A stretch of 64,000 nucleotides of DNA from Rhodopirellula halodulae (GTDB lineage: Bacteria; Planctomycetota; Planctomycetia; Pirellulales; Pirellulaceae), in contig NZ_JAJKFV010000033.1 of assembly GCF_020966775.1 (NCBI RefSeq), positions 1 to 64,000 of the forward strand. The letters are read 5' to 3'. How positions within the stretch are numbered: the stretch's first letter is position 1; each line of letters starts with the position of its first letter. Position numbers and translations under genes: made by a program. This document shows, piece after piece, positions 21,143 through 46,707 of this stretch. The notes under the pieces are model-generated. The model made no database searches. It saw nothing but the letters and a program-made list of their open reading frames with translations, and was not told the DNA's origin.

Positions 21143-21279
21143 CAAGGAAACGCAACTGATTCAGAACACACCGCCGAGCCGGATCGAATCTCTCCAATCG
21201 TTGTCGAGCTCCAGTTGCTGAACAGCAAAGCTGCGTGAAAAACGAAGACTGCTCTACAAACACGAGACGAATTACCACG

Positions 21280-22701: not shown

Positions 22702-22942
22702 GTCCGACCGATCGGTAGCAATGCGAAATGCCTGCTCCATAGACTTGGCACGTTTGTGCTGTTTCTTTGCACGATCGCAAAGGTTTCGAAGAAGAGAGCG
22801 GTTTAGATTACGGCTGTTCGGTCGCCGCTAGTAACCCGGACGAGAGTTTTCGCGTCCCTTCGCTGTCCTGCAACGGCGAAACGGCGGCTGGCACGATTCA
22901 CGCTAGTCCTGGCCGTTTCGCCACCATTGAGGCCACGAAGCG

Positions 22943-25900: not shown

Positions 25901-26386
25901 ACAAGCTCAGCTCCTAGAGATACATCGATCAATCCCAATGAAATCGATCTAACGGGAGCGAAGAAGCTTGAATCGTGGGATTTCCGCGATCCAGATGATT
26001 TGGCGAAATGGAGCGAACGAAAAAGCCTGGAAATTCAAAGGCGAGGCGACTCCGCCTTCGTGGTGGCAACCGGAGATGATTCTCAAATGGCGGTCAAGTT
26101 TCGACAACCACGCTCGGGCAAACTGGTCATCGAAATGCGAGCCACACCGATTCAAAATTCGACCAGCCAATTCTATTGGTCACAACCCGGACGCGGATTC
26201 AACGCTCAGCATCAAACGAAACGCTTGCTTCGCAAATCCGAGAAGACGAATGCCTATCTTTTCGCAATTCCGGATGGATTGACGATCAACAAGCTTCGAT
26301 TTGATCCCTTCGCGACTTACGATCAGTATGCCAATCCCGGTGAGATGAAGATCGAGACCATTTCGGTTTACCAACTCGCCGAATGA
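22943..26386 (+). CDS. Large secreted GH78 alpha-L-rhamnosidase with extra C-terminal module
   Basis: 1147 residues. A signal peptide ([20 protein letters not shown]) precedes the full GH78 architecture. An Fn3-like start ([34 protein letters not shown]) is followed by the jelly-roll N domain ([52 protein letters not shown]). Next come the rhamnosidase domain, then the (alpha/alpha)6 catalytic domain with [14 protein letters not shown] near residue 548 and [10 protein letters not shown] near 818, and the C-terminal beta domain. After about residue 1010 comes an extra 130-residue module ([28 protein letters not shown]) that resembles the end of the next gene's product. The enzyme would release L-rhamnose from the ends of oligosaccharides. 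It lies 240 bp after the sulfatase gene and 31 bp before a DUF1080-sulfatase gene. Confidence 0.93.
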
Positions 26387-26417
26387 AGGCAACTCCCACC
26401 CCACTTTCCCACCTATC

Positions 26418-29081
26418 ATGATGCCCCTCCAAACCCACATCATTTTCGCGATCGCGGTCTGTCTCTTCGCGAGCCACGGGCTGTCTGCCGCTGAGCTCGA
26501 TCCGCAGCAATCCGCTTGGCATGCCAAATACAAAAAGCAGGTCAACGCTCCTTTGCCGGAGGAGATGCTGCTGAACACCGATGCGGAGCCCAATCTTTCG
26601 GAAGGTTTCACTTCCTTGTTCAACGGAAAGGACTTGCAAGGCTGGACCGTTCGCGGAGGAACGTGCACGTTCGAGGTCCAAGACGACACCATCGTTGGCA
26701 AAGTGGTTCCTGGTTCCAACAGCACCTATTTGTCGACCGAACGTGACTTTGGCGACTTTGTGTTCAGTTGCGAAATGAAGTGGGAGGAACAATGCAACAG
26801 CGGCGTCATGTTCCGAGCTCAAACCAAAGCGAATTCGGACGGGACGGAAACGGTATTCGGCCCGCAAGCTGAGATGGAAGGCGTTGCAAAGGACCGGCAT
26901 TGGTCCGGCGGAATCTACGGCCAAAGCTGCAACGGTTTCTTTTATCCATTGTGGCTGAAAGAACATGCCGATGCGCGGGCCGCCTTTCGCCCAAACGAGT
27001 GGAATCGCTTGACGATTTCCGCCCGTGGCAAGGTGGTGAAAACATGGGTCAATGGTGTGCCGGCCGCACACTGGGTGGATGACGGAACCTACTCGAAAGG
27101 ATTCTTTGGGCTGCAAATGCACAAAGGCGCAACAGGCGAAGTGCACTGGAGAAACCTGCGCATGAAATCGCTTACGCACGAACCAGTCGCCAAGGTGTCC
27201 CCCACGCCAAGCAAGCGTCCCAATGTGTTGTTCATTCTGGCTGACGATCTAGGTTGGAGTGACACCACGCTGTTCGGCACGACGAAGCTCTATCAAACCC
27301 CGAACTTGGAGCGTTTGGCCGAACGTGGCATGACGTTCACACGGGCCTATTCGTCGAGTCCACTCTGTTCACCAACGCGTGCGAGTGTGTTGACGGGACT
27401 CAGCCCGGCACGTCACGGCATCACATCCCCAACTTGCCATCTCCCGCGAGTGATTTTGAAACCGGAAGCCCCAAAAACGGGACCGCCGAACAAGTTCTCA
27501 ACTGTCCCCAGTTCTGTTTCCCGGCTCGACACAAAGTACTACACGCTTGCCGAAATGTTCCGGGACAACGGATACGCCACGGGGCACTTTGGAAAGTGGC
27601 ACTTGGGTGCCGAACCCTACTCACCCCTCGAACATGGTTTTGATGTTGATGTGCCGCACCATCCCGGTCCCGGCCCCGCGGGTAGCTACGTCGCTCCGTG
27701 GAAGTTCAAGGATTTTGACCATGACCCGATGATTCCCGACGAGCATTTGGAAGACCGCATGGCAAAGGAAGCCGTGCGGTTCCTGGAACAGCATTCCGAA
27801 CAGCCGTTCTTTCTGAACTACTGGATGTTCAGCGTCCACGCTCCGTTCGATGCAAAAGCCAAGCTGATCGACAAGTATCGCGAAAAAGTCGATCCCGAGG
27901 ATGCTCAGCGCAGTCCCACCTACGCCGCGATGATCGAAAGCATGGACGACGCGATTGGAACCCTGCTAGACACACTGGATCGATTGGGAATCGCCGATGA
28001 AACAATCATCATTTTCGCGTCGGACAACGGCGGCAACATGTACAACCAAGTTGACGGGACAACACCCACCAGCAACGCCCCGCTGCGTGGCGGCAAGGCT
28101 TCGATGTATGAAGGCGGCGTGCGAGGCCCCGCGATTGTCGTGCAACCAGGAGTCGTCCGCGCGGGCAGCACGAGCGACGCTATCGTTCAAAGCGTCGACT
28201 ATTACCCGACGTTGCTGGAAATGCTTTCCATTGATCCTCAACCCGGACAATCGTTCGATGGTGTTAGCATCGTACCTGCGCTAAATGGCGATGACTTTCA
28301 GCGGGAGCCTATTTTTACGTACTTCCCACACGCCCCCGGTGTTCCGGATTGGTTGCCGCCTTCTGTGAGTGTTCACCATGGTGATTGGAAGCTGATTCGT
28401 ATCTTCCATGGCGGTGAGGATGGCGGCCATCGATACAAGCTCTTTCACCTCAAAGACGACATCAGCGAAGAGCACAACTTGGCCGCCGAGCATCCGCAAC
28501 GCGTGAAGCAACTGGATAACTTGATTGAACAGCACTTGGTAGCGACCCATGCCGTCCGCCCGCTCGCTAATCCGAACTTTGATCCCGCCAAGTACGACAT
28601 CGCAGCCGAAGGCAAGGCGACTCTCAAAGGCGGTGCCAATGCACCGAAGAGGCCCAAATCCAAGGTGCGCCGAAAACCGGTCGCGGGTTGGCTTCCGGCA
28701 GGCACCTGTGATTTGACTCTTGCCAAGAACTTTTTGAAAGTTGAAAGCTCAGGCGGCGATCCGCACTTCAGCCACGCGTTTCCCGAGACGATTCCTGGGC
28801 GACCAATGACGTTTGTCGTTGAGATGAAGTCCAACTCGTCCGGTCGAGGACAAGTGTTTTGGAAGGAAACTCAACTTCCGTATTCAGCCGAACGCAGCGA
28901 AGGCTTCGACGTGAACCATGACGGCGTGTTTCATACCTATTCGATCGAATTGTCTCCGTCCGGAACGGTTCAAGGCGTTCGTTTGGATCCGTCCAATGGT
29001 CCAGGCATCATTCAAATTCGCAGCATGCGTTTGCAGGATGAGAATGACCAGGTGATCCATGAATGGTCGTTCGGAAAGTAG
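26418..29081 (+). CDS. DUF1080-sulfatase fusion with C-terminal beta module
   Basis: 887 residues with three parts after a signal peptide ([19 protein letters not shown]). Residues about 63-255 are DUF1080: [42 protein letters not shown]. Residues about 270-720 are an S1 sulfatase: [12 protein letters not shown], the formylglycine motif CSPTR at about 316 in [28 protein letters not shown] and [11 protein letters not shown]. Residues about 750-887 form a beta-rich module ([31 protein letters not shown]) that matches the end of the upstream rhamnosidase in pattern. The enzyme would desulfate a glycan; DUF1080 and the tail may bind it. The start overlaps two ATGs (26418, 26421). It is in line with the GH78 gene, 31 bp apart. 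Confidence 0.92.
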
Positions 29082-29146
29082 GCTGATCGCTGCGACACCC
29101 TCTCATTGCACAACAAAATTGAAAACGAGATCGGAAGGCTTTTGAC

Positions 29147-30796
29147 ATGAACGATCGTCGACGGACACGCACCGCATTCGCTTTCGCGTTTGCATGGTTT
29201 TGCCTGACGGGTGTATCCACGCAAGCAGCGGAGCAAACGAACTTCCTCGTGATCCTGGCGGATGACTTGGGCTATTCCGATCTTGGTTGCTACGGCGGCG
29301 AGATCAACACGCCCAACTTGGACGCGTTGGCGGCCGGCGGCTTGAAGTACACCCAGTTCTACAACACCGCTCGCTGCTGGCCCACACGTGCGGCCTTGAT
29401 GACGGGGTACTACCCACAACAAGTTCGACGCGACGGGATGCCGGGGACGACACGTCAGTACGGCGGTGGTGGAAAGCGACCCGATTGGGCGCTCACGCTT
29501 GCGGAACGTTTGAGACCGGCCGGTTATCGAACCTATCACTCCGGTAAATGGCACATTGATGGGAAGCCAATCGAACATGGATTCGATCGATCCGATGAAG
29601 CCACTCGCAGTCCGGGATTCTTCGATTCCATCCGAAAAAAGAACCGTGATCCGAAGTTCTATCGCACCACCGCGACCGCGCAACACGCGATTGAATGTCT
29701 GCAAGAACACGGGGAACTCTATCCGGAGCAGCCGTTCTTTCACTACCTCGCCTTTCACGCACCGCACTTTCCTCTTCATGCGTTGCCGGAAGACATCGAA
29801 CGTTACCGAGACCGATACCTCGCGGGATGGGACGCACTGAGAGAGCAACGTAAACAACGTCAGGCAACGCTTGGCCTCGGTGTGGGCGAACTGTCACCAA
29901 TCGAAACCGAGGTGGGGCCGCCCTATGACTTCCCTGATCAAATCAAACAGCTCGGTGCCGGTGAGATCAACCGCCCTGTGGCCTGGGACACGCTGACGGA
30001 ACAGCAACAGCGTTTTCAAGCGACCAAGATGGCCATCCACACCGCGATGGTCGACCGAATGGATCGAGAGATCGGGCGAGTGATCGATCAACTGGAAGAG
30101 ATGGGTGAGTTCGAAAACACTTGGATTTGCTTTTTGTCTGACAACGGCGCCAGTGCGGAAATCATGGTCCGAGGTGAAGGGCACGATCCCACAGCCTCCC
30201 CCGGATCAGCCGAAACGTATCTGTGTTTGGGGCCCGGATTCAGCAGCGCTGCCAACACACCGTTTCGCCGCCACAAAACGTGGGTCCACGAGGGTGGCAC
30301 TTCCACGCCGTTCATCGTTCATTGGCCGAAGGGGATCGGTTCTTCCGATGAACGCAGAACCAACGTCGGCCACGCGATCGACATCACTCCGACGGTTCTG
30401 GAGATCGCCGAAGTCCAACCGAAGTTCGGCGATGCACCCCCGATGAGCGGTCGAAGCTTGGTGCCAACCTTCGAAAACGAGCAGGCCGTCATTCACGACG
30501 AGCTGTGGTTCTATCATGAAGGCAACTGGGCTCTCCGTCAGGGAGATTGGAAAATCATTCACTCCAACATCGCACGTCCGTTTCCCTGGCAAAGATCCGA
30601 AACCGCCGCCAACGAGTCCAAAGGCGATGCCCATTGGAAATTGTACGACTTGAGTCACGACCGCGCGGAACAGCACGACTTGGCTGACCAGCATCCCGAT
30701 CGCGTCAAGCAAATGGCGAATCGTTGGTGGGAACTGCAAGGTCAGTTCCTCAAGGATTCAACATGGTCGATTGGCAAGGCGGTTGGCAGCAATTGA
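29147..30796 (+). CDS. Secreted sulfatase with CWPTR active-site motif
   Basis: 549 residues. The start ATG 29147 is preceded by GGAAGG at 29133-29138, a good ribosome binding site. The signal peptide is FAFAFAWFCLTGVSTQAAE. The metal site is in FLVILADDLGYSDLGCYGG. The formylglycine motif is CWPTR near residue 76 (RCWPTRAALMTGYYPQ), which satisfies C-x-P-x-R. FLSDNGAS and TWVHEGGTSTPFIVHWP are also present. The last part, LYDLSHDRAEQHDLADQHPDRVKQM, is the usual C-terminal subdomain. The stop codon shares a base with the start of the next sulfatase gene (TGATG), which implies coupled translation. Confidence 0.92.
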   Translation: MNDRRRTRTAFAFAFAWFCLTGVSTQAAEQTNFLVILADDLGYSDLGCYGGEINTPNLDALAAGGLKYTQFYNTARCWPTRAALMTGYYPQQVRRDGMPGTTRQYGGGGKRPDWALTLAERLRPAGYRTYHSGKWHIDGKPIEHGFDRSDEATRSPGFFDSIRKKNRDPKFYRTTATAQHAIECLQEHGELYPEQPFFHYLAFHAPHFPLHALPEDIERYRDRYLAGWDALREQRKQRQATLGLGVGELSPIETEVGPPYDFPDQIKQLGAGEINRPVAWDTLTEQQQRFQATKMAIHTAMVDRMDREIGRVIDQLEEMGEFENTWICFLSDNGASAEIMVRGEGHDPTASPGSAETYLCLGPGFSSAANTPFRRHKTWVHEGGTSTPFIVHWPKGIGSSDERRTNVGHAIDITPTVLEIAEVQPKFGDAPPMSGRSLVPTFENEQAVIHDELWFYHEGNWALRQGDWKIIHSNIARPFPWQRSETAANESKGDAHWKLYDLSHDRAEQHDLADQHPDRVKQMANRWWELQGQFLKDSTWSIGKAVGSN

Positions 30797-32727
30797 TGAT
30801 GCGTTCAATTTTTCTCGCAAGTGTATGTCTGCTGACGCTGCTCGTTTCGCCATGCCTCATCCGAGCCGCGGAACGGCCCAATGTTCTATTGATTGTCGCG
30901 GACGATGTTGGTTACAGCGATCTGGGTTGCTACGGCGGTGAAATCGACACGCCCAACCTTGACCGATTGGCGGCAGAAGGCATTCGCTTCAGCGAGTTCC
31001 ACGTCAATCCAATGTGCACGGTCACGCGAACGAGTCTGATGACTGGGCACACGCATTGTCAGTCCGACGAGTATCGCCGCTCCATTCCGGTGGCTAGTTT
31101 GTTGAAAGACGCCGGGTACTCAACTTCTCTTTCGGGGAAATGGCACCAGCCCAAAAATCCGCTGGACGCCGGATTTGAATCTTTCTACGGATTCCTCGGC
31201 GGAGCCATCGATAGCTGGACTGGCAAAGAAGGCAGTCGCCACGCGATTCAAACGGACCGTGAAAAACCTCGGCCTGTCGAGCAGGGTTGGTACAGCAGCG
31301 ATGCATTCACCAACCGCACGATCCAAGACATCGATCGAGCTAAGCAAGCGAACAAGCCGTTCTTCGCGTTCCTGGCGTTCAACGCTCCTCACACGCCATT
31401 GCATGCGCCGCGAGCCAACGTTGAAAAGTATTACCAGCGATATCAGGCCGGTTGGCAGACGCTTCGTCAAAATCGATACCAGCGATTGAAGACGATGGGC
31501 ATGATCGACGATCGCTACGTAATGACCGAACCGGATGGAGAGGTACGGCGGTGGGAGGAACTGCCCGCGAAGATCCAGAAGCAAGAAGCTCGACGCATGG
31601 CCGCCTACGCAGGCATGCTGGATCGGCTGGATTGGAACGTCGGTCGACTGTTGCAGCATCTGAGTGATGAAGGACTCCGTGAAAACACCATGGTGATTTT
31701 TATGGCGGACAACGGAGGCGCGTACAACAACGGTGACATTCGCACGTACAACCAACAAATCCCATGGCAAGCCGGCTCGAATGCGTTTGTTTCCAACGGA
31801 TGGGGCTATCTGAAGAACACTCCGTTTCGTTGGTACAAATCTTGTGCTCAGGAGGGTGGCGTGTCCGTGCCGTTGATCATTCACTGGCCCCAAACACTGG
31901 CGAGCCAATCCGGTCAAATTCGGCACCAACGGCTGCACGTCACCGATCTCTATCCAACGCTTCTGGAGTTAGCGCACGCGAATTACCCGGCCGTTGACGG
32001 TGATCGAGATTTAGAGCCTCTTTATGGGCAATCGATCTTGCCGTTGCTTCGCGATCCCGAGATCGATGAGCTTGGAATCCATGACGAGATGTTCTGGGCA
32101 TTCAATCAAACGGGCAAAGGACTGACTCGAGGGCACTGGAAAATCTCCAGCATCAGCGATGGACCATGGCGTCTGTACGACATTCACAAAGACCCCGCCG
32201 AGTCGCGTGATTTGGCACGCGAAAGGCCGGATGTCTTGAGGGAGATGAGTGCGACCTGGTTCAAATTCGCGAAAGAACGCACCGCGATGCCGACGTCATG
32301 GCGAAGTCCACTCAAACCCTATCAAGAGGGTTGGGGATTTCATCGAGCCAGAATGGTCATGCCGGGCTATGTCCGCGCCGTACCAGCGATGGCAGCCACA
32401 AATGTCAGTGTGCAAACGGACCTAACGTTTCACTTTGCAGAACCAATCCGCTTCGCCAATTCGAAGGGAAAAACGCTGCGGTTGTATGAGGCGTCCGAAG
32501 TCGAACATCCAATCTGGGAGGCTGACCCTGCACCGGGCGATCCTGCGGAAGGTTCTCGTTCGATTTGTTTTTCGGATTTGCCGGAATTGAAATCCAACAC
32601 CACGTACTTCGCACTGGCGGATCCAGGCTGGATCACCATTGGAGGACACCCAGCAGGTCCGCTGAATGACGGAGCCTATTGGTACCGTTTCCGGACCGGC
32701 ATGGGTGAGGACGTCTCGGAGAAATAG
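30796..32727 (+). CDS. Secreted sulfatase with CTVTR motif and Ig-like C-terminal domain
   Basis: 643 residues from the ATG whose first base is the last base of the previous stop; a second ATG follows at once. Signal peptide FLASVCLLTLLVSPCLIRAAE. Family blocks: NVLLIVADDVGYSDLGCYGG, the active-site segment MCTVTRTSLMTG (cysteine near residue 74), LSGKWHQPK, IFMADNGG and CAQEGGVSVPLIIHWP. Valine stands where the C-x-P-x-R motif has proline. The cysteine and arginine are kept, so maturation may still occur but less surely. After about residue 510 is an added beta domain (VQTDLTFHFAEPI, LRLYEAS, LKSNTTYFALADPGWI, YWYRFRTG) of the Big_5 Ig-like kind. Likely role: sulfate removal in the rhamnan-type locus, coupled to its neighbour. 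Confidence 0.88.
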   Translation: MMRSIFLASVCLLTLLVSPCLIRAAERPNVLLIVADDVGYSDLGCYGGEIDTPNLDRLAAEGIRFSEFHVNPMCTVTRTSLMTGHTHCQSDEYRRSIPVASLLKDAGYSTSLSGKWHQPKNPLDAGFESFYGFLGGAIDSWTGKEGSRHAIQTDREKPRPVEQGWYSSDAFTNRTIQDIDRAKQANKPFFAFLAFNAPHTPLHAPRANVEKYYQRYQAGWQTLRQNRYQRLKTMGMIDDRYVMTEPDGEVRRWEELPAKIQKQEARRMAAYAGMLDRLDWNVGRLLQHLSDEGLRENTMVIFMADNGGAYNNGDIRTYNQQIPWQAGSNAFVSNGWGYLKNTPFRWYKSCAQEGGVSVPLIIHWPQTLASQSGQIRHQRLHVTDLYPTLLELAHANYPAVDGDRDLEPLYGQSILPLLRDPEIDELGIHDEMFWAFNQTGKGLTRGHWKISSISDGPWRLYDIHKDPAESRDLARERPDVLREMSATWFKFAKERTAMPTSWRSPLKPYQEGWGFHRARMVMPGYVRAVPAMAATNVSVQTDLTFHFAEPIRFANSKGKTLRLYEASEVEHPIWEADPAPGDPAEGSRSICFSDLPELKSNTTYFALADPGWITIGGHPAGPLNDGAYWYRFRTGMGEDVSEK

Positions 32728-32769: not shown

Positions 32770-33642
32770 TCACCGCATTTGCTTGCGGTATTCACGTGGC
32801 GATAGATCGAGGTGTGCTCGGAACTGCCGGCTGAAATAGTTGCTGTCCGAGAAACCGACGTCGAAAGCGATGTCCGTGATCGACCGTTCCGTCGTTCGCA
32901 ACAAGCGGCTGGCCTCTTGGATCCTCACCTGAATCAAATACTTGATGGGCGAGGTATGCATGGTTCCTTCGAAGGTGCGAATGAAGTTCCGCCTCGACAT
33001 GCCAGAAATCTCCACCAAATCATCCAGCGTGATGGGTGTCGCGAAGTGACGCTGGATGTGCGAGATCGCTTCCGCGATACGAAGCAATTTCTTGCTCTCT
33101 GGGTTGCGTGTGCGGCTGTAACATCGTGATAGGAATGTCACCAGTTGCAACATCGTGACCGTCGCCATCGTTTGAAATCCTGCCGCTCGGTTTTTAAGTT
33201 CCTGATCCAACGACTCGACGTACTTCAACGTTTCAATCAGCTCAGCGGGATTGAGTTGCAACCGGCTGGTGAATTGGTGTCGTTTTCGCCACGCGGGCTC
33301 CAAGGTGAACAACGCGTGATAGCCGGAAAGAGATTGCAAGTCGCCCAATCCCAACGGCAGTTCTTCCGGATCAAAGAGGATGTTGATCAAGCTCAATCGA
33401 TCCATATTGAGATAGTCATGCGGCCGATCGCCTCCGATGACGAATGTGTCGCCGGTCACCAACTCGTAACTGTCCTCGCCCGTGATGTGGACGCCTTGGC
33501 CGCCGGTGATGATGACGACCTCTGCGAACTCGTGGCAATGCAACCCAAACGGCTCCTGCGGATCACGTCGTTCCACCACGATCGGAAACCCATCGCTGTG
33601 GAACCAATCCTCCTTTTTGAGCTTTGGAATGGAGGCAGACAT
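32770..33642 (-). CDS. AraC-family regulator, probably of rhamnose genes
   Basis: 290 residues from the ATG at 33642; an earlier in-frame start would add 25 cysteine-rich residues and is less likely. The N-terminal cupin ([37 protein letters not shown]) is a sugar-binding AraC_binding domain. The C-terminal pair of helix-turn-helices is clear: [21 protein letters not shown] and [32 protein letters not shown]. The arrangement is like RhaR/RhaS. The gene is divergent from rhaA with about 190 bp between them, and convergent with the last sulfatase gene. Control of rhaA and the downstream genes by L-rhamnose is the obvious inference, not shown by the sequence. Confidence 0.88.
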
Positions 33643-33833
33643 GGTCGCAGAGTCCCAAAAAACGCCGTGTTTCGGTCGCTCGCAGCAACCGCACTGGATG
33701 GCATGATTGTGCTGCAACCGGCAAGAATGTCAAGGTTCATTGTTTTCCTGCATGGTACGCTACGGTCCGTTCAGTCACCACAATGGCCTGAATGGACAAT
33801 GCAGACGCCCTTCGATCAAACATCGGGATCACC
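33643..33833. promoter_or_regulatory. Divergent promoter region of araC-type regulator and rhaA
   Basis: About 190 bp separate the two start codons, the typical place for AraC-family operators. I see only a weak dyad, CATTGT (33738-33743) and ACAATG (33780-33785), and no confident -35/-10 pair. The assignment rests on gene order. Confidence 0.35.
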
Positions 33834-35117
33834 ATGGACCCTGGCAAAATAGACAAGGCTTACGAGTTAGCAAAAGAGGCCTATCAAGAGATTGGCGTCG
33901 ATGTGGACGCAGCGCTGAAGCAAATGCGGAACGTGCAAATCTCCGTTCATTGCTGGCAAGGCGATGATGTGATGGGATTCGAGGGCGACACCGGCGCGCT
34001 CGGCAACGGCTTGGCGGTGACAGGCAACTATCCAGGACGTGCTCGCAACATAGACGAGTTGCAAAGCGACCTCGAATTCGCTTACTCGCTGATTCCCGGT
34101 CGCCACCGGTTGAACCTGCATGCTCTCTATGGTGACTTTCCAACGCCAGTGGATCGCGATGAGATTGGCGTGGAACATTTTCGAGGCTGGATCGACTGGG
34201 CACGGGGCCAACAGATCCAATTGGATTTCAACCCCAGCTACTTTTCGCACCCCCACGCGACCGACGGTTTCACGTTGTCGCATCCGGACGCGGGAATTCG
34301 TCAGTTTTGGATCGACCATGGCATCGCAAGCCGAAAGATTGCCGCTGCCATGGGTGAGGCGCAAGACACCCCCTGCATCAATAATTTTTGGGTTCCCGAC
34401 GGTTACAAGGACACGCCGGCGGATCGCAAAGCTCCTCGAGAAAGACTTGCGGCAGCGCTCGATTCGATTTTCTCAACCGATCTGCCGGCCGAGCACACTT
34501 TGGACGCGGTCGAATGCAAACTCTTCGGCATCGGCAGCGAAAGCTATGTGGTTGGTTCTCACGAGTTTTACATGGGCTACGCGATCTCTCGGAACAAAGT
34601 GTTGTGTTTGGACGCGGGGCACTTCCATCCGACGGAAGTGATCTCGGACAAAATTTCGTCCGTCATGATGTACGTCCCTGAGCTCCTTTTGCACGTTAGC
34701 CGTGGCGTTCGTTGGGACAGCGATCATGTCGTGACCTACACCGATGAGCTTCAATCCATTTTGCAAGAAGTGGTTCGCGGCGACTATCTAAACCGTGTCC
34801 ACATTGGATTGGACTTCTTTGACGCCAGCATCAACCGAGTGGCAGCGTGGGCCATCGGCACTCGCAATACGCTCAAGGCGTTGCTCGCGGCCTTGCTCGA
34901 GCCGACCCAACAGTTGCAACAACTGGAGCTCGAAGGCGACTACACCGGTCGATTGGCGTTGTTGGAAGAACAAAAAACGTTGCCTCTGGGTGCTATTTGG
35001 AACCACTACTGTCAACAAGCCGGGGTTCCAGCCGGTGCGGATTGGTTGGGATTGGTCAGGCAGTACGAGAATGATGTTCTCTCACATCGCGATCGAAACC
35101 CAACCTTGGTTGGATGA
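33834..35117 (+). CDS. rhaA: L-rhamnose isomerase
   Basis: 427 residues from ATG 33834, which aligns with the known start of RhaA ([17 protein letters not shown] against the E. coli N-terminus); ATG 33792 would add 14 residues. The whole length resembles E. coli Rha[117 protein letters not shown]. The metal-binding residues in DAGHFHPTE and the DFFDASINR block are kept. The enzyme turns L-rhamnose into L-rhamnulose in the cytoplasm. It starts a run of same-strand genes (permease, small membrane protein, aldehyde dehydrogenase, aldolase), so it is the entry step of the rhamnose route. No rhamnulokinase gene is next to it. Confidence 0.97.
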
Positions 35118-35197
35118 CTTTCTGAAAGACACTTCACTGATGGCGGATGAGTGCTTTCGGAGGGATGAAGCCGAAAGCGGTACACACGAGAACTTTG

Positions 35198-36622
35198 ATG
35201 AGCGAAGACAGCAACAACGCAAGTGGCGAATTTGAACGCGAACCGGTTCCCGAATCAGCTCGACTCGGAAACGGTAAGTTTTGGGGAATGTACGCCGGCG
35301 AGCACGCGGCGGGCACCGAGTTCATGATCGGCCCTCTGTTTTTAGCGGCCGGTGCCAGCCTTTCGGATTTGTTGCTGGGACTATTGCTGGGCAACATCTT
35401 GGCTGTGTTGACCTGGCGATTTCTGGTCGTGCCGATTGCGATGGTCAAGCGATTGACGCTGTACTACCAATTGGAACGCATTGCGGGCGATTCGCTTGTG
35501 AAGCTTTACAACCTCGTCAACGGTTTGTTGTTTTGCTTTCTAGCAGGGGCGATGGTCACCGTCTCCGCGTCCGCGGTTGGCGTGCCGTTTGACATTCGGT
35601 TCGAGGTACCCGAAAACGTTTTCGGTCTCAGCAATCCTTCGTTCACGCTGTTGGTTGTGATTGTCGGTGCGGTCATCACAGCGGTTGCGGCGGGCGGATA
35701 CGAACGAGTGGCGCGTTTCGCGAATATTGCGGCACCTTGGATGATCGCCGTGTTCGCGTGCTGCGGAATTGTTTCGCTCGCGCAAATGGGTGCCACCAGC
35801 ACGACGGCTCTTTCGGAGGGCACGTTTTGGTCGGACGCGATCACGTTTGTGCAGGAAAAGAACGGCCCCGCGACATTTAGCTTTTGGCAGATCGTCGTGT
35901 TCGCTTGGTTGTGCAATGGTGCGATGCACTTTGGCATGTCTGATTTGACCATCTTCCGTTTTGCTCGCCACAAATCATCCGGCTGGGCACCAGCAATTGG
36001 AATGTTCTTGGGCCACTACATGGCATGGATCGCCGCAGCATTGTTGTTGGCAGCTTTGATCAAACTTCAGCCCTCCTTGGTGGTTGGTGATGACGGGAAA
36101 GTCACCGCGAACCCCGGTTTGCTGGCTTATCAAGCGGTCGGGTGGACGGGAATCATTTGCGTTGTCATCGCCGGATGGACGACCGCCAACCCCACGATCT
36201 ACCGTGCTGGGTTGGCTTTCCAAGGCATGGTGCCAAATAGCTCCCGCACCGCAATGACACTGGTCGCTGGGCTGGTGGCCACCATCGCGGGTGCATTCCC
36301 GAACTTGTCTGCCCAATTGCTGGACTTCGTGGGGATGTACGGAACCATCTTGGGCACCATGGGGGCCGTCATTTTTGTTGACTTCTACTTGATCCACAAG
36401 TTTGGCCTTCGTCCGGAATACGCGTCCAGCACAGGCATCCGCATCAACGCGGCGGTTTTGATTGCGTGGACGCTTCCGGTGGCGGTTGCGTTGTACTGGA
36501 TCATGGCCAAAGGACTGTTTGCCGCTTATGCGGTCATACCATGTTGGTTCGCGTGCGGAATCTTGTACCTGGTGCTCAGCAAATTCCTGCAGCGTCCAGG
36601 CGTGCAACAGTCCACCGTGTGA
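35198..36622 (+). CDS. NCS1-family (cytosine/purine permease-like) transporter, possible rhamnose carrier
   Basis: 474 residues from ATG 35198. About 12 membrane segments are visible, such as LFLAAGASLSDLLLGLLLGNILAVLTW, LLVVIVGAVITAVAAGG, IAAPWMIAVFACCGIVSLAQ, MFLGHYMAWIAAALLLAALI and LLDFVGMYGTILGTMGAVIFVDFYLI. The pattern of an early FMIGPLFLAAGASLSD loop, NIAAPWMI, and DFYLIHKFGL near the end is that of NCS1 nucleobase:cation symporters. Substrates of the family include cytosine, allantoin and hydantoins. Its place directly after rhaA, before the lactaldehyde step, suggests use for rhamnose or a pathway intermediate. That is inference; known rhamnose carriers belong to other families. Confidence 0.82.
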   Translation: MSEDSNNASGEFEREPVPESARLGNGKFWGMYAGEHAAGTEFMIGPLFLAAGASLSDLLLGLLLGNILAVLTWRFLVVPIAMVKRLTLYYQLERIAGDSLVKLYNLVNGLLFCFLAGAMVTVSASAVGVPFDIRFEVPENVFGLSNPSFTLLVVIVGAVITAVAAGGYERVARFANIAAPWMIAVFACCGIVSLAQMGATSTTALSEGTFWSDAITFVQEKNGPATFSFWQIVVFAWLCNGAMHFGMSDLTIFRFARHKSSGWAPAIGMFLGHYMAWIAAALLLAALIKLQPSLVVGDDGKVTANPGLLAYQAVGWTGIICVVIAGWTTANPTIYRAGLAFQGMVPNSSRTAMTLVAGLVATIAGAFPNLSAQLLDFVGMYGTILGTMGAVIFVDFYLIHKFGLRPEYASSTGIRINAAVLIAWTLPVAVALYWIMAKGLFAAYAVIPCWFACGILYLVLSKFLQRPGVQQSTV

Positions 36623-36668
36623 ACAGGAACGAGTGCACAAGAGAGAAGATTCAAGAAAACGAAGACTT

Positions 36669-36866
36669 ATGAAAAACATTGCCAAGATGATTTCGTTGAT
36701 CGCTTTTTGCTTGATCGTGGTTCCGTGCTCGCTCTTCTTTGCGGGAGCGATCGACCTGCCTTTGGTGAAGACACTCGCACTGATCGGAACCATCATTTGG
36801 TTCGCGTCCACTCCGTTGTGGATGAGCCGAGAACTGCAGGTGGATTCAGCCGAAGTCGAGATCTAA
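36669..36866 (+). CDS. Small two-helix membrane protein
   Basis: 65 residues from ATG 36669, 46 bp after the permease. Two hydrophobic helices, ISLIAFCLIVVPCSLFFAGAI and VKTLALIGTIIWFASTPLWM, are followed by a short acidic tail (ELQVDSAEVEI). The arrangement suggests a small companion of the transporter, but no family is recognised. The gene is flanked by the permease and the aldehyde dehydrogenase on the same strand. Confidence 0.65.
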   Translation: MKNIAKMISLIAFCLIVVPCSLFFAGAIDLPLVKTLALIGTIIWFASTPLWMSRELQVDSAEVEI

Positions 36867-37081
36867 ACGCATCGGCATCCTTTTATCCGCGCATTGGGCC
36901 CAGGCATTGCCTCGGCACCCGCATCCGGGAATTGCAGCGGTGTTTCCGGTATAAGCTGCGTTCGCCCTCACACGTTCGGAAGCGAACGGCTCCAGCTCCG
37001 CAAATGCGGGACGATGAACTCCATAGACATCTGTTGTAGACTGTCCATCACAATTCACCCCCATCACGAATGAGAAAATCG

Positions 37082-38569
37082 ATGAACGTCGCTAGCCAAC
37101 AATCTTTGCTCCCCGAAGTCCAATCATTCTTGGATCAGTCTCCACTGCCGAGTTTCGTGGGAGGCAAACCGCTTCCCAACGCCAACGGGAATTTGGTGGC
37201 CACCATCGACCCCGGATCGGGCGATCAATTGGCTGAAATTCATGATTTGGATGCCAGTGAGATCGATCAGGCCGTTCAAGTCGCGAGTGATGCATTCCCC
37301 GCCTGGGCGGCTTTGTCCCAAGACGAACGTGGATCGATCTTGCTGAAGTTGGCCGATGCGGTCGAACAACACAAACCGATCATTGCCCAGATCGAGGCAT
37401 TGGATGCGGGAAAGATTGAGGCCCAAGCGGCGGGTGACGTTCAGAATTTCGTGGATACCCTTCGCTACTTTGTTGGGTTGGCGTCCAAAGTCGAAAAACG
37501 CACCAAGCTCGACGTGCCTGGTCACGAAGCTTGGACCGTCAAGCAACCTTGGGGTGCTTGTGCGTTTATCTTCCCATGGAACTTTCCGTTCTTGTTGATC
37601 GGATGGGGAATTTCGCCGGCTTTGGCAGCGGGCAACACGGTAGTGATCAAGCCCGCGGAAGACACGTCGTTGTCGGCACTTTATCTGGCACAGCTCGCGA
37701 AAGAAGTTGGCGTGCCGGATGGCGTGATCAACGTGGTCACCGGGCGTGGTGCAACCGCGGGAGCCGCTCTGACCAACAACAAGCAAATCAAACGCATGTC
37801 ATTCACCGGTTCGCCCGAAGTGGGACAATTGGTCGGCGAAGCATGCGGTCGCAACTTGGTTCCGGTGAAGTTGGAACTGGGCGGCAAAGGCGCTGCTGTC
37901 GTGTTCGACGATGTGGACGTCGCGGCCACCGCCAAGGCTCTCGTAGGAGCAATCACGTTCCACACCGGCCAAGTTTGCTGCGACGCGACGCGGTGGTTGA
38001 TCCACGAGAACATCTACGATGAATTTGTCGCCGAATGCCAACGTTTGATGGAGGAGGTCAAGATTGGTCACCCGTTGGACCCATCCAGTCAAATGGGCCC
38101 CGTCGTGAACCCGAAACAACGCGAACGTGTTCTGGGCTATCAAGAGAAGGGAATCGCGGGCGGAGCCAAATGTGTTTGTGGTGGTGGCGCCGCCACGGTC
38201 GACGGCATGGATGGGAACTATGTCAAACCAACCTTGCTGGCGGGAACGCTCGACAACATCGCCGCGCGTGATGAGATTTTCGGCCCCGTGGCTTACTTGG
38301 CGACATTCTCAAACGAAGAAGAGGCCATCGCGATGGCCAACGACACGGACTACGGGTTGGCCAACAGCGTTTGGACACCTGACGAAGCCAAAGCGAATCG
38401 AGTCGCGGAAGCTATGGTCGCTGGAAACAGTTGGATCAACGCTCACAACGTGTTCGCTCATGGGGTACCTTACGGCGGCGTGAACAAGAGCGGCATGGGT
38501 GGCGGAGTTTTGTCGATCGAGACTCTGATGGACTACTACCGCAGCCAATCCGTCGTGCGGCCTTTGTAA
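37082..38569 (+). CDS. Aldehyde dehydrogenase, probable lactaldehyde dehydrogenase
   Basis: 495 residues from ATG 37082; an ATG at 37070 adds four. All ALDH marks are present: WGACAFIFPWNFPFLL with the cofactor-site asparagine, KPAEDTSLSAL, FTGSPEVGQLV, the general base glutamate in KLELGGKG and the nucleophile cysteine in HTGQVCCDATR. The later DEIFGPVAYLATF and SGMGGG close the family pattern. The product uses NAD(P)+ to oxidise an aldehyde. In rhamnose catabolism the aldolase gives L-lactaldehyde plus dihydroxyacetone phosphate, so lactaldehyde is the likely substrate. That is inferred from gene order, and betaine or other aldehydes cannot be excluded. A terminator follows the gene, before the aldolase. 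Confidence 0.9.
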   Translation: MNVASQQSLLPEVQSFLDQSPLPSFVGGKPLPNANGNLVATIDPGSGDQLAEIHDLDASEIDQAVQVASDAFPAWAALSQDERGSILLKLADAVEQHKPIIAQIEALDAGKIEAQAAGDVQNFVDTLRYFVGLASKVEKRTKLDVPGHEAWTVKQPWGACAFIFPWNFPFLLIGWGISPALAAGNTVVIKPAEDTSLSALYLAQLAKEVGVPDGVINVVTGRGATAGAALTNNKQIKRMSFTGSPEVGQLVGEACGRNLVPVKLELGGKGAAVVFDDVDVAATAKALVGAITFHTGQVCCDATRWLIHENIYDEFVAECQRLMEEVKIGHPLDPSSQMGPVVNPKQRERVLGYQEKGIAGGAKCVCGGGAATVDGMDGNYVKPTLLAGTLDNIAARDEIFGPVAYLATFSNEEEAIAMANDTDYGLANSVWTPDEAKANRVAEAMVAGNSWINAHNVFAHGVPYGGVNKSGMGGGVLSIETLMDYYRSQSVVRPL

Positions 38570-38615
38570 GTTCACCGAGTCCCCGTCTCGGCGACACCGC
38601 AACGCCACACTGCAT

Positions 38616-38657
38616 TGGGCGGACCTACCGATCCATCGGAAGGGTTCGCCCATTTTT
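38616..38657 (+). terminator. Terminator after the aldehyde dehydrogenase gene
   Basis: TGGGCGGACCT (38616-38626) pairs with GGGTTCGCCCA (38642-38652) over 11 bp with two G-T pairs, and TTTTT follows (38653-38657). The loop itself holds a small stem (CCGAT/ATCGG). It lies 47 bp past the stop and would divide the locus before the aldolase gene. Confidence 0.75.
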
Positions 38658-38703
38658 GTAGCAGTTTGTTTTCAAGCCAATTGCACTCCCATCTGGAATC
38701 ATC

Positions 38704-39996
38704 ATGACCGACTCGCGTGACGTGCAGCATCCTCGAGACAGAATCATGCAGACGATGGACCGAATCTATCGGTACCGCATGACGACCACTTCAGGAGGCA
38801 ATCTGTCGATTCGCGATTCGGAGGGGAACATCTGGATCACGCCGGCCCGCGTCGACAAAGGCAACCTGACTCGCAACGACATCATTTGCGTGCGAGCCGA
38901 CGGCACCGTCGAAGGCCCCCATCCGCCGTCCTCGGAATTTCCATTCCACAAAGCGATCTATGAGGCTCGCGACGACGTGCACGCAATCGTGCACGCTCAC
39001 CCGGTTGCGTTGGTGGCATTCAGCATTTGTCAACAGGTTCCCGACACCCGCCTGTTTCACCAAGCCCACAGCGTATGTGGCAAAGTCGGGTTTGCACCGT
39101 ACGCCTGCCCTGGTTCGCAAGCCTTGGGCAAAAGCATCGCGGATCAATTCGCCCAAGGTTGCGACAGCGTGATCTTGGAAAATCACGGCGTCGTGGTGGC
39201 CGGAGTGGATTTTGCCAGCGCGTTCCAACGATTTGAAGCCTTCGAATTCGCGGGCAAAACGCTGATCAAAGCCAAGCAGTTGGGCCGAGTCCTTTCACTC
39301 ACTGACGAGCAGCTTCAGCAGGCGGCATCGAGGAGTGTTGACTTCACCAGCTATGAACCCGGCGTCGCTTGCACGCGAGAGCAAGAGTTGCGAAGGCAAC
39401 TTTGCGAGTTCATTCGACGGGGATGCCGACAACGATTGTTGATCAGCACAGAAGGCAGCTTCTCCGCTCGCGTGAACGACAACACGTTCTTGATCACGCC
39501 AACTCAACGTGACCGCGAACAGCTTCGCGCGGAAGACTTCGTGCTGGTCGACGGCGAACGTCGCGAAGCGGGCAAATTGGCCAGTCGAGCGGCGAATGCT
39601 CACCGAGCCATCTACGAGATGCACCCGCACGTCAACGCGATCGTGTTTGCTCATCCAGTCAACGCCACCGCGTTCAGCGTGACGGATGTTTCACTGGACG
39701 TGCGAACGATTCCCGAGAGCTACGTCTTCCTGCGAGATGTCGCTCGCGTCCCATACGGAATTCAATATGGCAACGATGGGACGATTGCGGATCACGTGAC
39801 CGAGCGAAACCCGGCGGCGATTCTGGAGAACGATGGCGTTTTGGTGACTGGATCAACGGTATTGGATGCGTTCGACCGGCTGGAAGTCCTGGAGTCCACC
39901 GCGGAGGCTGTCATCAATGCGAAAGCCATTGGCGAAGTCTCCGTGATGCCGCCTCAGGTCATCGACGAACTTTGCCAAGAGTTCAATCTGGGCTGA
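38704..39996 (+). CDS. Tandem class II aldolase/adducin protein, second half degenerate
   Basis: 430 residues made of two copies of the class II aldolase fold, about 8-205 and 225-425. In the first, the zinc-site residues of L-fuculose/L-rhamnulose phosphate aldolases are in place: E78 in SSEFPFH, H97 and H99 in HAHP, H161 in ENHG. In the second, the matching positions are A296 in SRAANAH, F315 and H317 in FAHP, and D377 in ENDG, so three of four ligands are lost. The first half is likely a working aldolase for rhamnulose-1-phosphate, giving lactaldehyde. The second half may be structural, regulatory, or fill a subunit interface. The gene follows the ALDH gene, after a terminator. Confidence 0.85.
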
Positions 39997-40030
39997 GCCT
40001 GCCTTGGCTGTAGCGTACGTCGTGCAGGCT
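39996..40030. repeat. Inverted repeat between convergent genes
   Basis: AGCCTGC (39996-40002) and GCAGGCT (40024-40030) form a perfect 7-bp stem with a 21-base loop. It starts on the last base of the aldolase stop. No T run follows, so a terminator role is doubtful. It may be a copy of an intergenic palindromic repeat, to be checked against the genome. Confidence 0.3.
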
Positions 40031-40053
40031 GGCGTCTGCAATCAGCATCTGCA

Positions 40054-40362
40054 CTACGGGGCGTCGTTCTCGATTGAGATTGGATCAGTGTCTGAAATCG
40101 GATCCGCGTCGGCCTGAAACACCGATCCAAGTTCGATAGGGTCGCCGTTGGCGTGGATCCCCGCCGCTTCGTCCATCGCGCGAATGTCCGATTCAACCAA
40201 GTCAACTTTGATCGGCTCTGACGTATCGCATCCAACACAGAACACCGACAACGCCAGCGCAGAACCAAACGAACGTGACCACGACACGGTGAACTGCCCC
40301 CGGCGATTCGATCGTTTCACCGACGTCACCGTCACTCCAATTCGCGTCCAGCCGATTCGCAT
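40054..40362 (-). CDS. Small lipoprotein
   Basis: 102 residues from the ATG at 40362, which lies just after the stop of the upstream zinc-ribbon gene. A GTG at 40287 could be the true start, since it would begin directly with a signal peptide: SWSRSFGSALALSVFCVGC. The lipobox cysteine is in CVGC, followed by DTSEPIKVDLVESDIRAMDEAAG. The S-E-P step and acidic helix recall the two small lipoproteins at 7999 and 10908, but weakly. The tail is acidic (DADPISDTDPISIENDAP). Probably anchored in a membrane. It ends the pyrH-frr operon. Confidence 0.65.
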   Translation of the reverse strand: MRIGWTRIGVTVTSVKRSNRRGQFTVSWSRSFGSALALSVFCVGCDTSEPIKVDLVESDIRAMDEAAGIHANGDPIELGSVFQADADPISDTDPISIENDAP

Positions 40363-44526: not shown

Positions 44527-46707
44527 TCATTCGCTCGACGAACTCCAGACGTCCTTGTACCGCGAAAGCAGTTCGGATTCTTGTGGTGTTCCGATCGCGC
44601 GAAACGCATTCCACGCCGGTTTCGGTTTGCCTCGTGGATGTTCCTTGCTGCTCAATCCACGAAGCCCGAGAAGCAGCCCGCCTTCGCCGCTGTGATCGAC
44701 TGATCGATGGTAATCAAATGCCAACACGCTATCGAACTGGCGTAGCTGCTGGAACGTGTACAACACGGCCGCGACTTGTTGCTGCAGCGATTGCTCGTCG
44801 TCCTCGGGAGCATGAAACCCTTGTTCGCTTAGCAACACAGGTCGCACGTTGCCCTCGGCGTCACGCAAGCGGTCGCTCTTCATGTATTCATCCAAGACCG
44901 ACCAATTCTTCAGCGTGAACATTTTGGCGTCCAAGTCAAACTTCACGTTGTCGTTCCAGGTGTCGGATTCCCAAAGGCTTTCCGGGTACGGATGGTGAGC
45001 CATTCCCCATGGGAAGTCACCTTCGACCTCGCCGTGCTTGACCAACGATTCCATGATTTCTTTGGATCGGTACCAACGCCAATGAGCCGGGTTGGGCAGG
45101 TTCCAGTAGTGAGTCAACGAGATGAACGTGCGTGCGTGAGGGTTGATTCGACGTGTCGCGATGTCGACCATCCGCATGGAGCGAAAGTAGTGGTCCAAGT
45201 AAACGTGGTGCGGTGTTTCACCCATGTTGGTCCACTGCCACCCCGCATCGATCTCGTTGTGAACGATCCAGTGGTCGATTCGCAGATCACCTTCGCTGTA
45301 TCGCTCAGCCAAATAATCCAACGTGATCGCGTACAAGTTGGCGGAGTCCGGATCGGTCAAGTTCGGCATCGTATAGACGCCGGCCGGATCCGCATTCGGA
45401 TGCTGCAATGTCGGTCGCTGGCTGTCACGTGCAGACCTGTTCGTCTGATTCCCGATCAACAAAATTCCTGCCAACACCAATCCGGCCTCGCGTCCCATAC
45501 GGACACGCTTGTCTAAGTGCTGTTCCGCACCTTGGCGGACAAAGACCTGCTTGCCGCGAATGGTGACGGGAACGTAGCCCGGTTTGGGATGCAACTCGAT
45601 TAAACCGTTCAGCAAAATATTGACGGTGGCGTGCTGCAACCCAAGTTCACGGATCATTTCCGAGTTCAATTCCGACACGCAGGTGACTCCCTTCGCCGCA
45701 TGCAGCGTCGGCGTTGGCGGCAGTGTCTTTGCTTCGCTTTGATCGAGGACGTCGACATAGCGGACCGCGGAATACGGCGTGCAGGTGCGGCTGCCGTCGT
45801 CGCGAAGTGCACTGCTGATTGAAACCACTTGCCAACGCATTCCGGTTCGCTTCAACCAGGAACCGGGTGCGGCGGGGAACTTCACCTCGAATGTCCCATC
45901 ACTTCGCAGTCGGACCGATCGGAAATGCGTTTTGGAGTCAATGGTTGCCGGCAACGCCGAGATCTCGTCCAAATCACGAGCGATCAAACTCAGATTCGCC
46001 GTGGCAACTTCGCCAACAGCCTTTCCTGAAACCACCACATGCTCGGGCGAGTGTCGAACCTCGGTCAAACGGATCGGAAAATCGGTGTGATAGTAATTCG
46101 CAATGCGTTCGTCCAACTGCTGAAGTTGTTGCACGTGGGCGGCACGCTGCTGACGTTGCTTCCATTCGCGGTCATTCTCCGGACGCAGTGTCACCTTGCG
46201 AATACGAAACCGGACATCCTCTTTGCGACCAAAGTCCAATCGCAATGTGGTCGGTCCATCATCGTTCAAAAATAATTCGCCTTCCGATAGATCACAACTG
46301 TAGACCGTCCATCCTTCGGCGCGGTGCAAATACGGAAGGTCCAATCGTCGCTTCTCGCTGAACGGTTGGCCGATGAAGAGTTGCATGTTCTGAATGCCTT
46401 CTGGACAGAAGACTTCCATCGCCAGCATCCAATGACGATCGACGACAGGAGTGGCCGGGATGTCAAAGACGATATAAGGATCGTTGCCGGTTGAATCCAG
46501 AACCAACGCGCCACCGTCCTGCTGAATCGTCAAGTGATGACGGGACGCCGAGTCGACGGGGAGATTGATCGCATGGGATTGAGCCCTCACCGTTTGAGCC
46601 AGACCGCTCATCGCGATCAAACAACCAATCGCAATCGCGAATTGAATGCGAGTGCGTCGAGAGCACATTTCTCGCGCAATGCGAGACGGGTGCATGAACG
46701 TATGCAT
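44527..46707 (-). CDS. Secreted DUF5722 protein, glycosidase-like
   Basis: 726 residues. A signal peptide (IQFAIAIGCLIAMSGLAQTVRAQ) follows 20 N-terminal residues, so a later ATG may be the start. An N-terminal beta domain (VFDIPATPVVDRHWMLAMEVFCPEG, TTLRLDFGRKEDVRFRIRKVTL) precedes the DUF5722 catalytic-like barrel. HNEID near residue 481 and LSEQGF near 626 look like an acid/base glutamate and a nucleophile glutamate of a clan GH-A barrel, with LTHYWNLP and WGMAHHPYP between. DUF5722 proteins are thought to be glycoside hydrolases; the substrate is not known. No carbohydrate gene is next to it. Confidence 0.8.
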   Translation of the reverse strand: MHTFMHPSRIAREMCSRRTRIQFAIAIGCLIAMSGLAQTVRAQSHAINLPVDSASRHHLTIQQDGGALVLDSTGNDPYIVFDIPATPVVDRHWMLAMEVFCPEGIQNMQLFIGQPFSEKRRLDLPYLHRAEGWTVYSCDLSEGELFLNDDGPTTLRLDFGRKEDVRFRIRKVTLRPENDREWKQRQQRAAHVQQLQQLDERIANYYHTDFPIRLTEVRHSPEHVVVSGKAVGEVATANLSLIARDLDEISALPATIDSKTHFRSVRLRSDGTFEVKFPAAPGSWLKRTGMRWQVVSISSALRDDGSRTCTPYSAVRYVDVLDQSEAKTLPPTPTLHAAKGVTCVSELNSEMIRELGLQHATVNILLNGLIELHPKPGYVPVTIRGKQVFVRQGAEQHLDKRVRMGREAGLVLAGILLIGNQTNRSARDSQRPTLQHPNADPAGVYTMPNLTDPDSANLYAITLDYLAERYSEGDLRIDHWIVHNEIDAGWQWTNMGETPHHVYLDHYFRSMRMVDIATRRINPHARTFISLTHYWNLPNPAHWRWYRSKEIMESLVKHGEVEGDFPWGMAHHPYPESLWESDTWNDNVKFDLDAKMFTLKNWSVLDEYMKSDRLRDAEGNVRPVLLSEQGFHAPEDDEQSLQQQVAAVLYTFQQLRQFDSVLAFDYHRSVDHSGEGGLLLGLRGLSSKEHPRGKPKPAWNAFRAIGTPQESELLSRYKDVWSSSSE

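Follow-up and report, generated by a model that had tools for sequence, protein, structure and literature searches.

A fused class II aldolase of Rhodopirellula halodulae with active-site parts apparently divided between two paralogous domains

Introduction

What is the role of a class II aldolase domain that has lost its metal site and is fused to one that has kept it? The question is raised by a gene at 38704..39996 (+) of the window, i.e. the whole stretch of 64,000 nucleotides that was analysed. The gene is an open reading frame from ATG to stop and encodes a tandem class II aldolase of 430 aa. A preliminary description of the sequence had named the protein a live/dead fusion and had proposed either a changed assembly or a regulatory pseudo-domain.

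FucA is a tetramer of like subunits. The active sites of AraD, FucA and RhaD are formed by two adjacent subunits (PMC5434028, in extract). The key residue contributed by the adjacent monomer is Glu171' in RhaD and Tyr113' in FucA, according to an extract of PMC6202814. For FucA, an extract of PMC11841055 gives Tyr113' and Glu73 as key residues and Asn29, Thr43, Gly44, Ser71 and Ser72 as phosphate contacts.

Sequence sets and alignments

In the genome collection, 202 stretches were confirmed and the best 80 were kept as loci. 104 tandem proteins were aligned; alignment A2 holds 99 of the 104. In addition, 59 single-domain rows with an intact E/D-H-H-H site were gathered, 25 of which share the KG motif found in the N half of the tandem. 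The column test was restricted to columns with a conservation of 85% or more among these rows, which were selected for both the KG motif and an intact site. The tables for the N and C halves were made from 26 tandems of A2.

Results

Domain organization and metal site

Pfam PF00596 matched the protein twice (261.8 bits, cut-off 22.2); the two halves scored 158.1 and 108.4 bits separately. The N half (residues 1–215, 38704..39348, +) contains the metal and phosphate site, with the Pfam match at 13–185. The C half (residues 216–430 plus stop, 39349..39996, +; modelled from residue 218) has the aldolase fold without a metal site. All further coordinates within the gene refer to the same strand.

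The eight residues on which the preliminary description was built (E78, H97, H99 and H161; A296, F315, H317 and D377) were all found in the translation of the reading frame, as were the fold phrases of the second half, AIYEMHP (302), FAHP (315) and ILENDG (373). In the N half, E78 (38935..38937), the metal ligands H97 and H99 (38992..39000) and the metal ligand H161 (39184..39186) were each intact in 104/104 tandems, so that three histidines and an acidic residue are present in at least one domain of every protein. E78 had been listed simply as a metal ligand. It aligns with FucA Glu73, which, in an extract of PMC11841055, is a catalytic acid/base, and it is therefore not only a possible ligand.

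The corresponding places of the C half are differently occupied. R295 and A296 (39586..39591) stand at the places of FucA Ser72 and Glu73 (295: R in 101 and K in 3 tandems; 296: A in 79, S in 23 and G in 2; n = 104). F315 and H317 (39646..39654) stand where the first and second histidine ligands would be (315: F 53, H 1; 317: H 53, Q 44), and D377 (39832..39834) where the third would be (D 102, N 2). None of the 104 aligned tandems keeps more than one of the four ligands in this half: all four are lost in 50 and three in 54, the survivor being H at 317 in 53 tandems and H at 315 in one (L073); such uniformity goes far beyond chance. A full set of ligands in every domain, as in a homotetramer with four like sites, was thus found in none of the 104. 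Alignment of the two halves with each other (31% identity over 189 columns, E = 1e-24) revealed no shift, and the reading of displaced ligands in the C half was rejected.

Structure models

Structure prediction, which had been suggested as a check, yielded a confident two-domain AlphaFold model (pLDDT 93.5, pTM 0.91). The N half of the model (6–210) was matched to E. coli FucA 1e47 with Z 24.6 and an rmsd of 2.4 over 201 residues. The C half modelled alone (pLDDT 93.2) was matched to E. coli FucA 1dzz with Z 27.1 and an rmsd of 2.0 over 202 residues. FucA was the top-ranked solved fold for both halves, and by these models the C half is predicted to keep the aldolase fold.

Conservation and selection

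The 104 tandems belong to Bacteroidota (40), Planctomycetota (33) and other phyla (5); 25, mostly from relatives of the genome analysed here, carry no taxonomy, and the remaining one is the window's own tandem. Full-length matches were present in 24 of 60 genomes in the search of relatives and in 13 of 294 genomes in a phylum-wide draw, the own genome being counted in both.

Pairwise dN/dS was 0.03–0.06 for the C half (computable in 9 of 11 pairs) and 0.01–0.08 for the N half (10 of 11), with several pairs near saturation at synonymous sites. Purifying selection on the C half is about as strong as on the N half, and the 'dead' half is therefore constrained. It is also the more divergent one (mean p-distance 0.461 vs 0.343). 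New residues are nearly fixed at its pocket positions: R271 and N376 in 104, R295 in 101 and D377 in 102 of 104 tandems. In one stretch, L180 (G468:C1:3002400-3004900), the first ~100 tandem residues run in frame into sulfatase-like sequence, as judged by eye; this is a rearranged or mis-assembled copy.

Residues kept by one half only

In the column test, the N half alone retained ten columns: Y22, N33, K52, G53, E78, R89, D91, H97, G126 and H161. H99 falls outside this class because the C half often keeps H317. A single column passed the cut for being kept by the C half and lost by the N half, that of E338. Here Glu was found in 25/25 KG-motif relatives, in 26/26 C halves and in 0/26 N halves; over all 104 tandems the counts were 104/104 for the C half and 0/104 for the N half. 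E338 lies in the loop I336-P337-E338-S339 (39709..39720), each residue of which is invariant (104/104). The same column of the N half holds Q120 (39061..39063; Q 100, T 2, K 1, A 1; n = 104). E338 is not quite alone as a C-only column, given a narrow miss at W44 (N)/L263 (C), where Leu occurs in 24/25 relatives and 22/26 C halves and Trp in 26/26 N halves.

At the E338 column the 59 intact rows have E (31), H (18), P (4), Q (2), I (2), A (1) or a gap (1). Of the 34 rows that are not in the KG set, just 6 show Glu, and those of AraD type show His or Gln; Glu at this place is a subfamily trait. Whichever of three methods was used, and whether AraD-type rows were included or not, E338 and Q120 stood opposite RhaD E171 (6/6 alignments). 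When fewer RhaD-type rows had been used, in an earlier alignment, E338 had faced RhaD E167. FucA Tyr113 is opposite I336, two residues from E338, and is not supported as its exact equivalent.

The phosphate-site residues N33, S76 and S77 are kept in the N half. The C half lacks them at the places of N33 and S77 and keeps Ser294. The phosphate loop of the tandem differs from that of FucA (A48/R49 instead of T43/G44). The presence of Glu338 in all C halves, its absence from all N halves and the Glu of all 25 relatives agree with a half that lends its neighbour a catalytic residue. The live/dead description holds for the metal site, lost in one half and conserved in the other in 104/104 tandems, and has less support for a half that is simply dead or regulatory, since Glu338 is kept in 104/104. 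By loss of catalytic residues and retention of the fold the C half qualifies as a pseudoenzyme domain, with a residue of catalytic type, E338, still in place.

Origin of the fusion

A phylogeny had been proposed for dating the fusion. In an ML tree, which left out nine rows and has several long branches, the N halves formed one group and the C halves another (100/100 each). The N halves adjoin (96/82) six single-domain enzymes that have a DKG motif, and N halves, the six DKG enzymes and C halves together form one group (99/91). A constraint joining N and C halves as one clade was not rejected (p-AU 0.456). By these groupings one fusion event suffices, either by tandem duplication or by joining of two close paralogues.

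Gene neighbourhood in the window and the own genome

The gene before the tandem (37070..38569, +) encodes an aldehyde dehydrogenase (Pfam PF00171, 524.5 bits); among its best 25 matches listed, no NCBIfam subfamily cut-off was reached. L-rhamnose isomerase RhaA is encoded at 33792..35117 (+; TIGR01748, 671.3 bits, cut-off 584.95) and an AraC-family regulator at 32770..33717 (-), whose best NCBIfam match is RhaS (149.2 bits, below the cut-off of 288). Between RhaA and the dehydrogenase lies a permease of distant cytosine-permease type (35147..36622, +; NF008241 38.4 bits, far below the cut-off of 326). It has no Pfam match at 0.001, and its relatives recur beside tandems, some of them in Bacteroidota. 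It is followed by a small membrane-like ORF of 66 residues without Pfam match (36665-36863). Upstream of the rhamnose genes, the stretch 21235-32727 encodes a GH78 rhamnosidase amid four sulfatases, a set that would suit the use of a sulfated rhamnose polymer. A gene of 726 aa with DUF5722 is found at 44527-46707 (-). In a promoter scan of 36800-40300 no promoter-like site was found, an uninformative result.

No RhaB was found in the window, and none of the four FGGY_C genes of the own genome is on the window's contig. The closest rhamnulokinase match of this genome is on another contig (434.5 bits, below the cut-off of 527.95). Apart from the tandem, PF00596 is found in a single gene of the genome, which belongs to a locus of microcompartment type. 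This locus, L136 (G000:C12:170000-182000), includes acetate kinase, a vertex protein of EutN/CcmL type (under cut-offs), aldehyde dehydrogenase, a KG-motif aldolase and lactate/malate dehydrogenase.

Gene context in relatives

Partners were counted in the 80 loci (best 80 of 202) by best match to named query proteins, some flanks being short. An isomerase was found in 21 loci, a kinase in 27, another aldolase, of RhaE type, in 30, aldehyde dehydrogenase in 8, lactate oxidation in 8, a Zn-alcohol dehydrogenase in 15 and none of the sought partners in 31. Several loci, L007, L009, L010 and L011 among them, have full-length flanks and still none of the sought partner genes. L062 contains a periplasmic sugar-binding protein, RhaT, RhaM, RhaA, an FGGY kinase and the tandem, without another aldolase in the stretch; its genome has two other PF00596 genes. 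Further genes, for RhaEW, RhaI and lactate oxidation, are present in Bacteroidota loci, for example L060 and L077. In certain Bacteroidales loci (L048, L055, L083 and similar) the tandem is accompanied by a Zn-alcohol dehydrogenase and a fusion of aldolase and dehydrogenase, with no rhamnose isomerase in the stretch; these loci perhaps serve another substrate.

In the search of relatives, tandem and RhaA were close together in G000, G004, G005, G007 and G008, and tandem, kinase and FucI in G001, G003, G009, G012 and G025. Neither RhaA nor a strong FucI match was found in 10 of the 24 tandem-bearing genomes. RhaA occurred in 13/24 tandem genomes vs 6/36 others (Fisher p 0.004); the association is weak because the signal is lost outside the own genus (3/11 vs 6/36, p 0.42). 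Where the pathway is readable, the common thread is deoxyhexose breakdown.

The proposal that the companion aldolases are worn-out copies replaced by the tandem was unsupported, as their consensus keeps E/D-H-H-H. Misses of the motif are fragments or motif variants; the RhaEW miss in L060 reads GHG at the third site, with the His kept.

Discussion

It is reasonably likely that the protein is an asymmetric fused class II sugar-phosphate aldolase with a deoxyhexulose-1-phosphate as substrate, in which two paralogous domains each hold part of one active site. Complementary loss is the best reading of the aligned residues: the first half probably gives the metal site and the second the acid. The N half would supply the metal ligands H97, H99 and H161 together with Glu78 and the phosphate site, and Glu338 from the C half of the same or of a partner chain would supply the acid. 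If the halves pack as neighbouring subunits of FucA and RhaD do, Glu338 would reach the N-half metal site and take over the role that Glu171' has in RhaD. The pocket of the C half itself may be closed, perhaps by an R295-D377 pair, for which a salt bridge filling the empty site is a guess. Weighing against this reading are the rarity of the Glu outside the KG set, the offset of FucA Tyr113, the earlier placement opposite E167, the near miss of the W44/L263 column and the deviating phosphate loop. Two chains would form a pseudo-fourfold ring with two working sites, because only the N halves have ligands. Such a fusion implies an assembly unlike that of a plain homotetramer, and to this extent the expectation of the preliminary description would be borne out.

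Cleavage of rhamnulose-1-phosphate or fuculose-1-phosphate is the most likely reaction, because an L-rhamnose cluster is present here and rhamnose or fucose clusters in part of the relatives. L-rhamnulose-1-phosphate, perhaps also L-fuculose-1-phosphate, would be cleaved to DHAP and L-lactaldehyde, and the latter would then be oxidised by the adjacent aldehyde dehydrogenase of the window. Against this substrate speak the 30 loci with a RhaE-type aldolase, the 31 with no sought partner, the low count of aldehyde dehydrogenase (8 of 80) and the 10 of 24 tandem-bearing genomes that have neither RhaA nor a strong FucI match. As a doubtful alternative, the same composite site might catalyse a 4-epimerisation, dehydration or decarboxylation in a deoxyhexose pathway, alongside a true aldolase encoded separately. 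Relatives by fold and profile include L-ribulose-5-phosphate 4-epimerase and decarboxylases, and in relatives the tandem is also found near isomerase genes for rhamnose or fucose. In 11 of the 80 loci (best 80 of 202) the tandem is joined by an isomerase, a kinase and another aldolase, and the companion types keep the E/D-H-H-H consensus (motif passed in 6/7, 13/17 and 5/5 rows); the frequent RhaE-type aldolase with an intact consensus site leaves room for a different reaction of the tandem. On the other hand, isomerase and kinase stand without another aldolase seen in the stretch in 7 of the same 80 loci (best 80 of 202), the adjacent aldehyde dehydrogenase of the window fits an aldehyde product, and the proposed acid matches RhaD, not AraD. 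A more far-reaching version, in which a symmetric site shared between subunits was irreversibly divided between fused copies in several phyla, metal and phosphate binding staying with one copy and nothing but the trans acid with the other, so as to form a natural two-component site within one chain, and is used for a fucose or rhamnose step other than the ordinary aldolase one, is proposed because other aldolases often stand beside the tandem; it is speculative and rather improbable.

The remaining explanations deny the C half a catalytic part. Pro-Glu is a usual helix start, and in the model the Glu338 loop sits at the start of a helix (337–343), so Glu338 could be kept for folding, as a helix cap or as an interface residue of a half that only fills a structural ring; the higher p-distance of the C half agrees with this. 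That explanation is unlikely, since the equivalent N-half helix (119–125) carries Gln in 100/104 tandems, by which Glu is not needed for the fold, and since Glu is present in all 25 intact KG-motif enzymes. The regulatory pseudo-domain of the preliminary description, sensing a metabolite in an altered pocket, could account for the new near-fixed residues R271, N376, R295 and D377. It leaves the absence of Glu from the N half and its retention in the C half unexplained, no sign of a ligand-binding role appeared among the features examined, and its probability is accordingly small. Ligand loss taken alone would also be seen in a decaying duplicate or a sequencing artefact, an explanation of negligible probability with the same pattern in 104/104 sequences from several phyla and the low dN/dS of the C half; a local pseudogene is excluded on the same grounds.

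If the composite site is real, it would be a clean case of complementary degeneration in a fused protein, with neither copy able to work alone and one site for every two domains. It would also explain the strong selection on a 'dead' domain, and it would mark an enzyme common in Planctomycetota and Bacteroidota, in some of which genes for rhamnose or fucose polymers stand beside it.

Comparison with known systems

The literature searched yielded no paper describing such a tandem; PMC3870299 treats RhaD and RhaEW and, in extract, not the tandem protein. The cut-offs of the following family profiles were not reached. The tandem scored 81.5 bits against the RhaD profile NF002963 (cut-off 170), 125.6 bits against FucA TIGR01086 (cut-off 400.25), 175.4 bits in two stretches against 3-oxo-tetronate 4-phosphate decarboxylase NF043034 (cut-off 250) and 71.3 bits against one further family profile (cut-off 389.1).

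E. coli RhaD shares with the tandem the Zn-dependent class II fold, the setting in a rhamnose operon and a Glu at the E338 column, which in RhaD is the acid from the adjacent monomer (Glu171'; PMC6202814, in extract). It has one domain, and every site is alike. E. coli FucA matches the N half with E73, H92, H94 and H155, but is again of one domain, and its trans residue is Tyr113. The single-domain aldolase of a PVM microcompartment locus (L001) belongs to the KG-motif subfamily, has E-H-H-H and carries the same Glu in an LPEV loop. Unlike the tandem it has one domain and stands beside a shell-vertex-like gene (matches under family cut-offs); its C-terminal tail presumably resembles an encapsulation peptide. 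In PVM loci that serve fucose and rhamnose, a class II aldolase is the signature enzyme (PMC4207490, in extract). RhaEW, which adjoins the tandem in several Bacteroidota loci, likewise has two domains, one of them PF00596, and acts in rhamnose catabolism, as described in part of PMC3870299; its aldolase is fused to a short-chain dehydrogenase and not to a second aldolase domain. The adducin head domain was also among the fold matches (8iah). This domain has a class II aldolase fold without catalysis; adducin is a eukaryotic cytoskeletal protein and is not known to have a link to sugar metabolism. The parts of the tandem are rated as known, and the arrangement, with a site divided between fused copies, as new.
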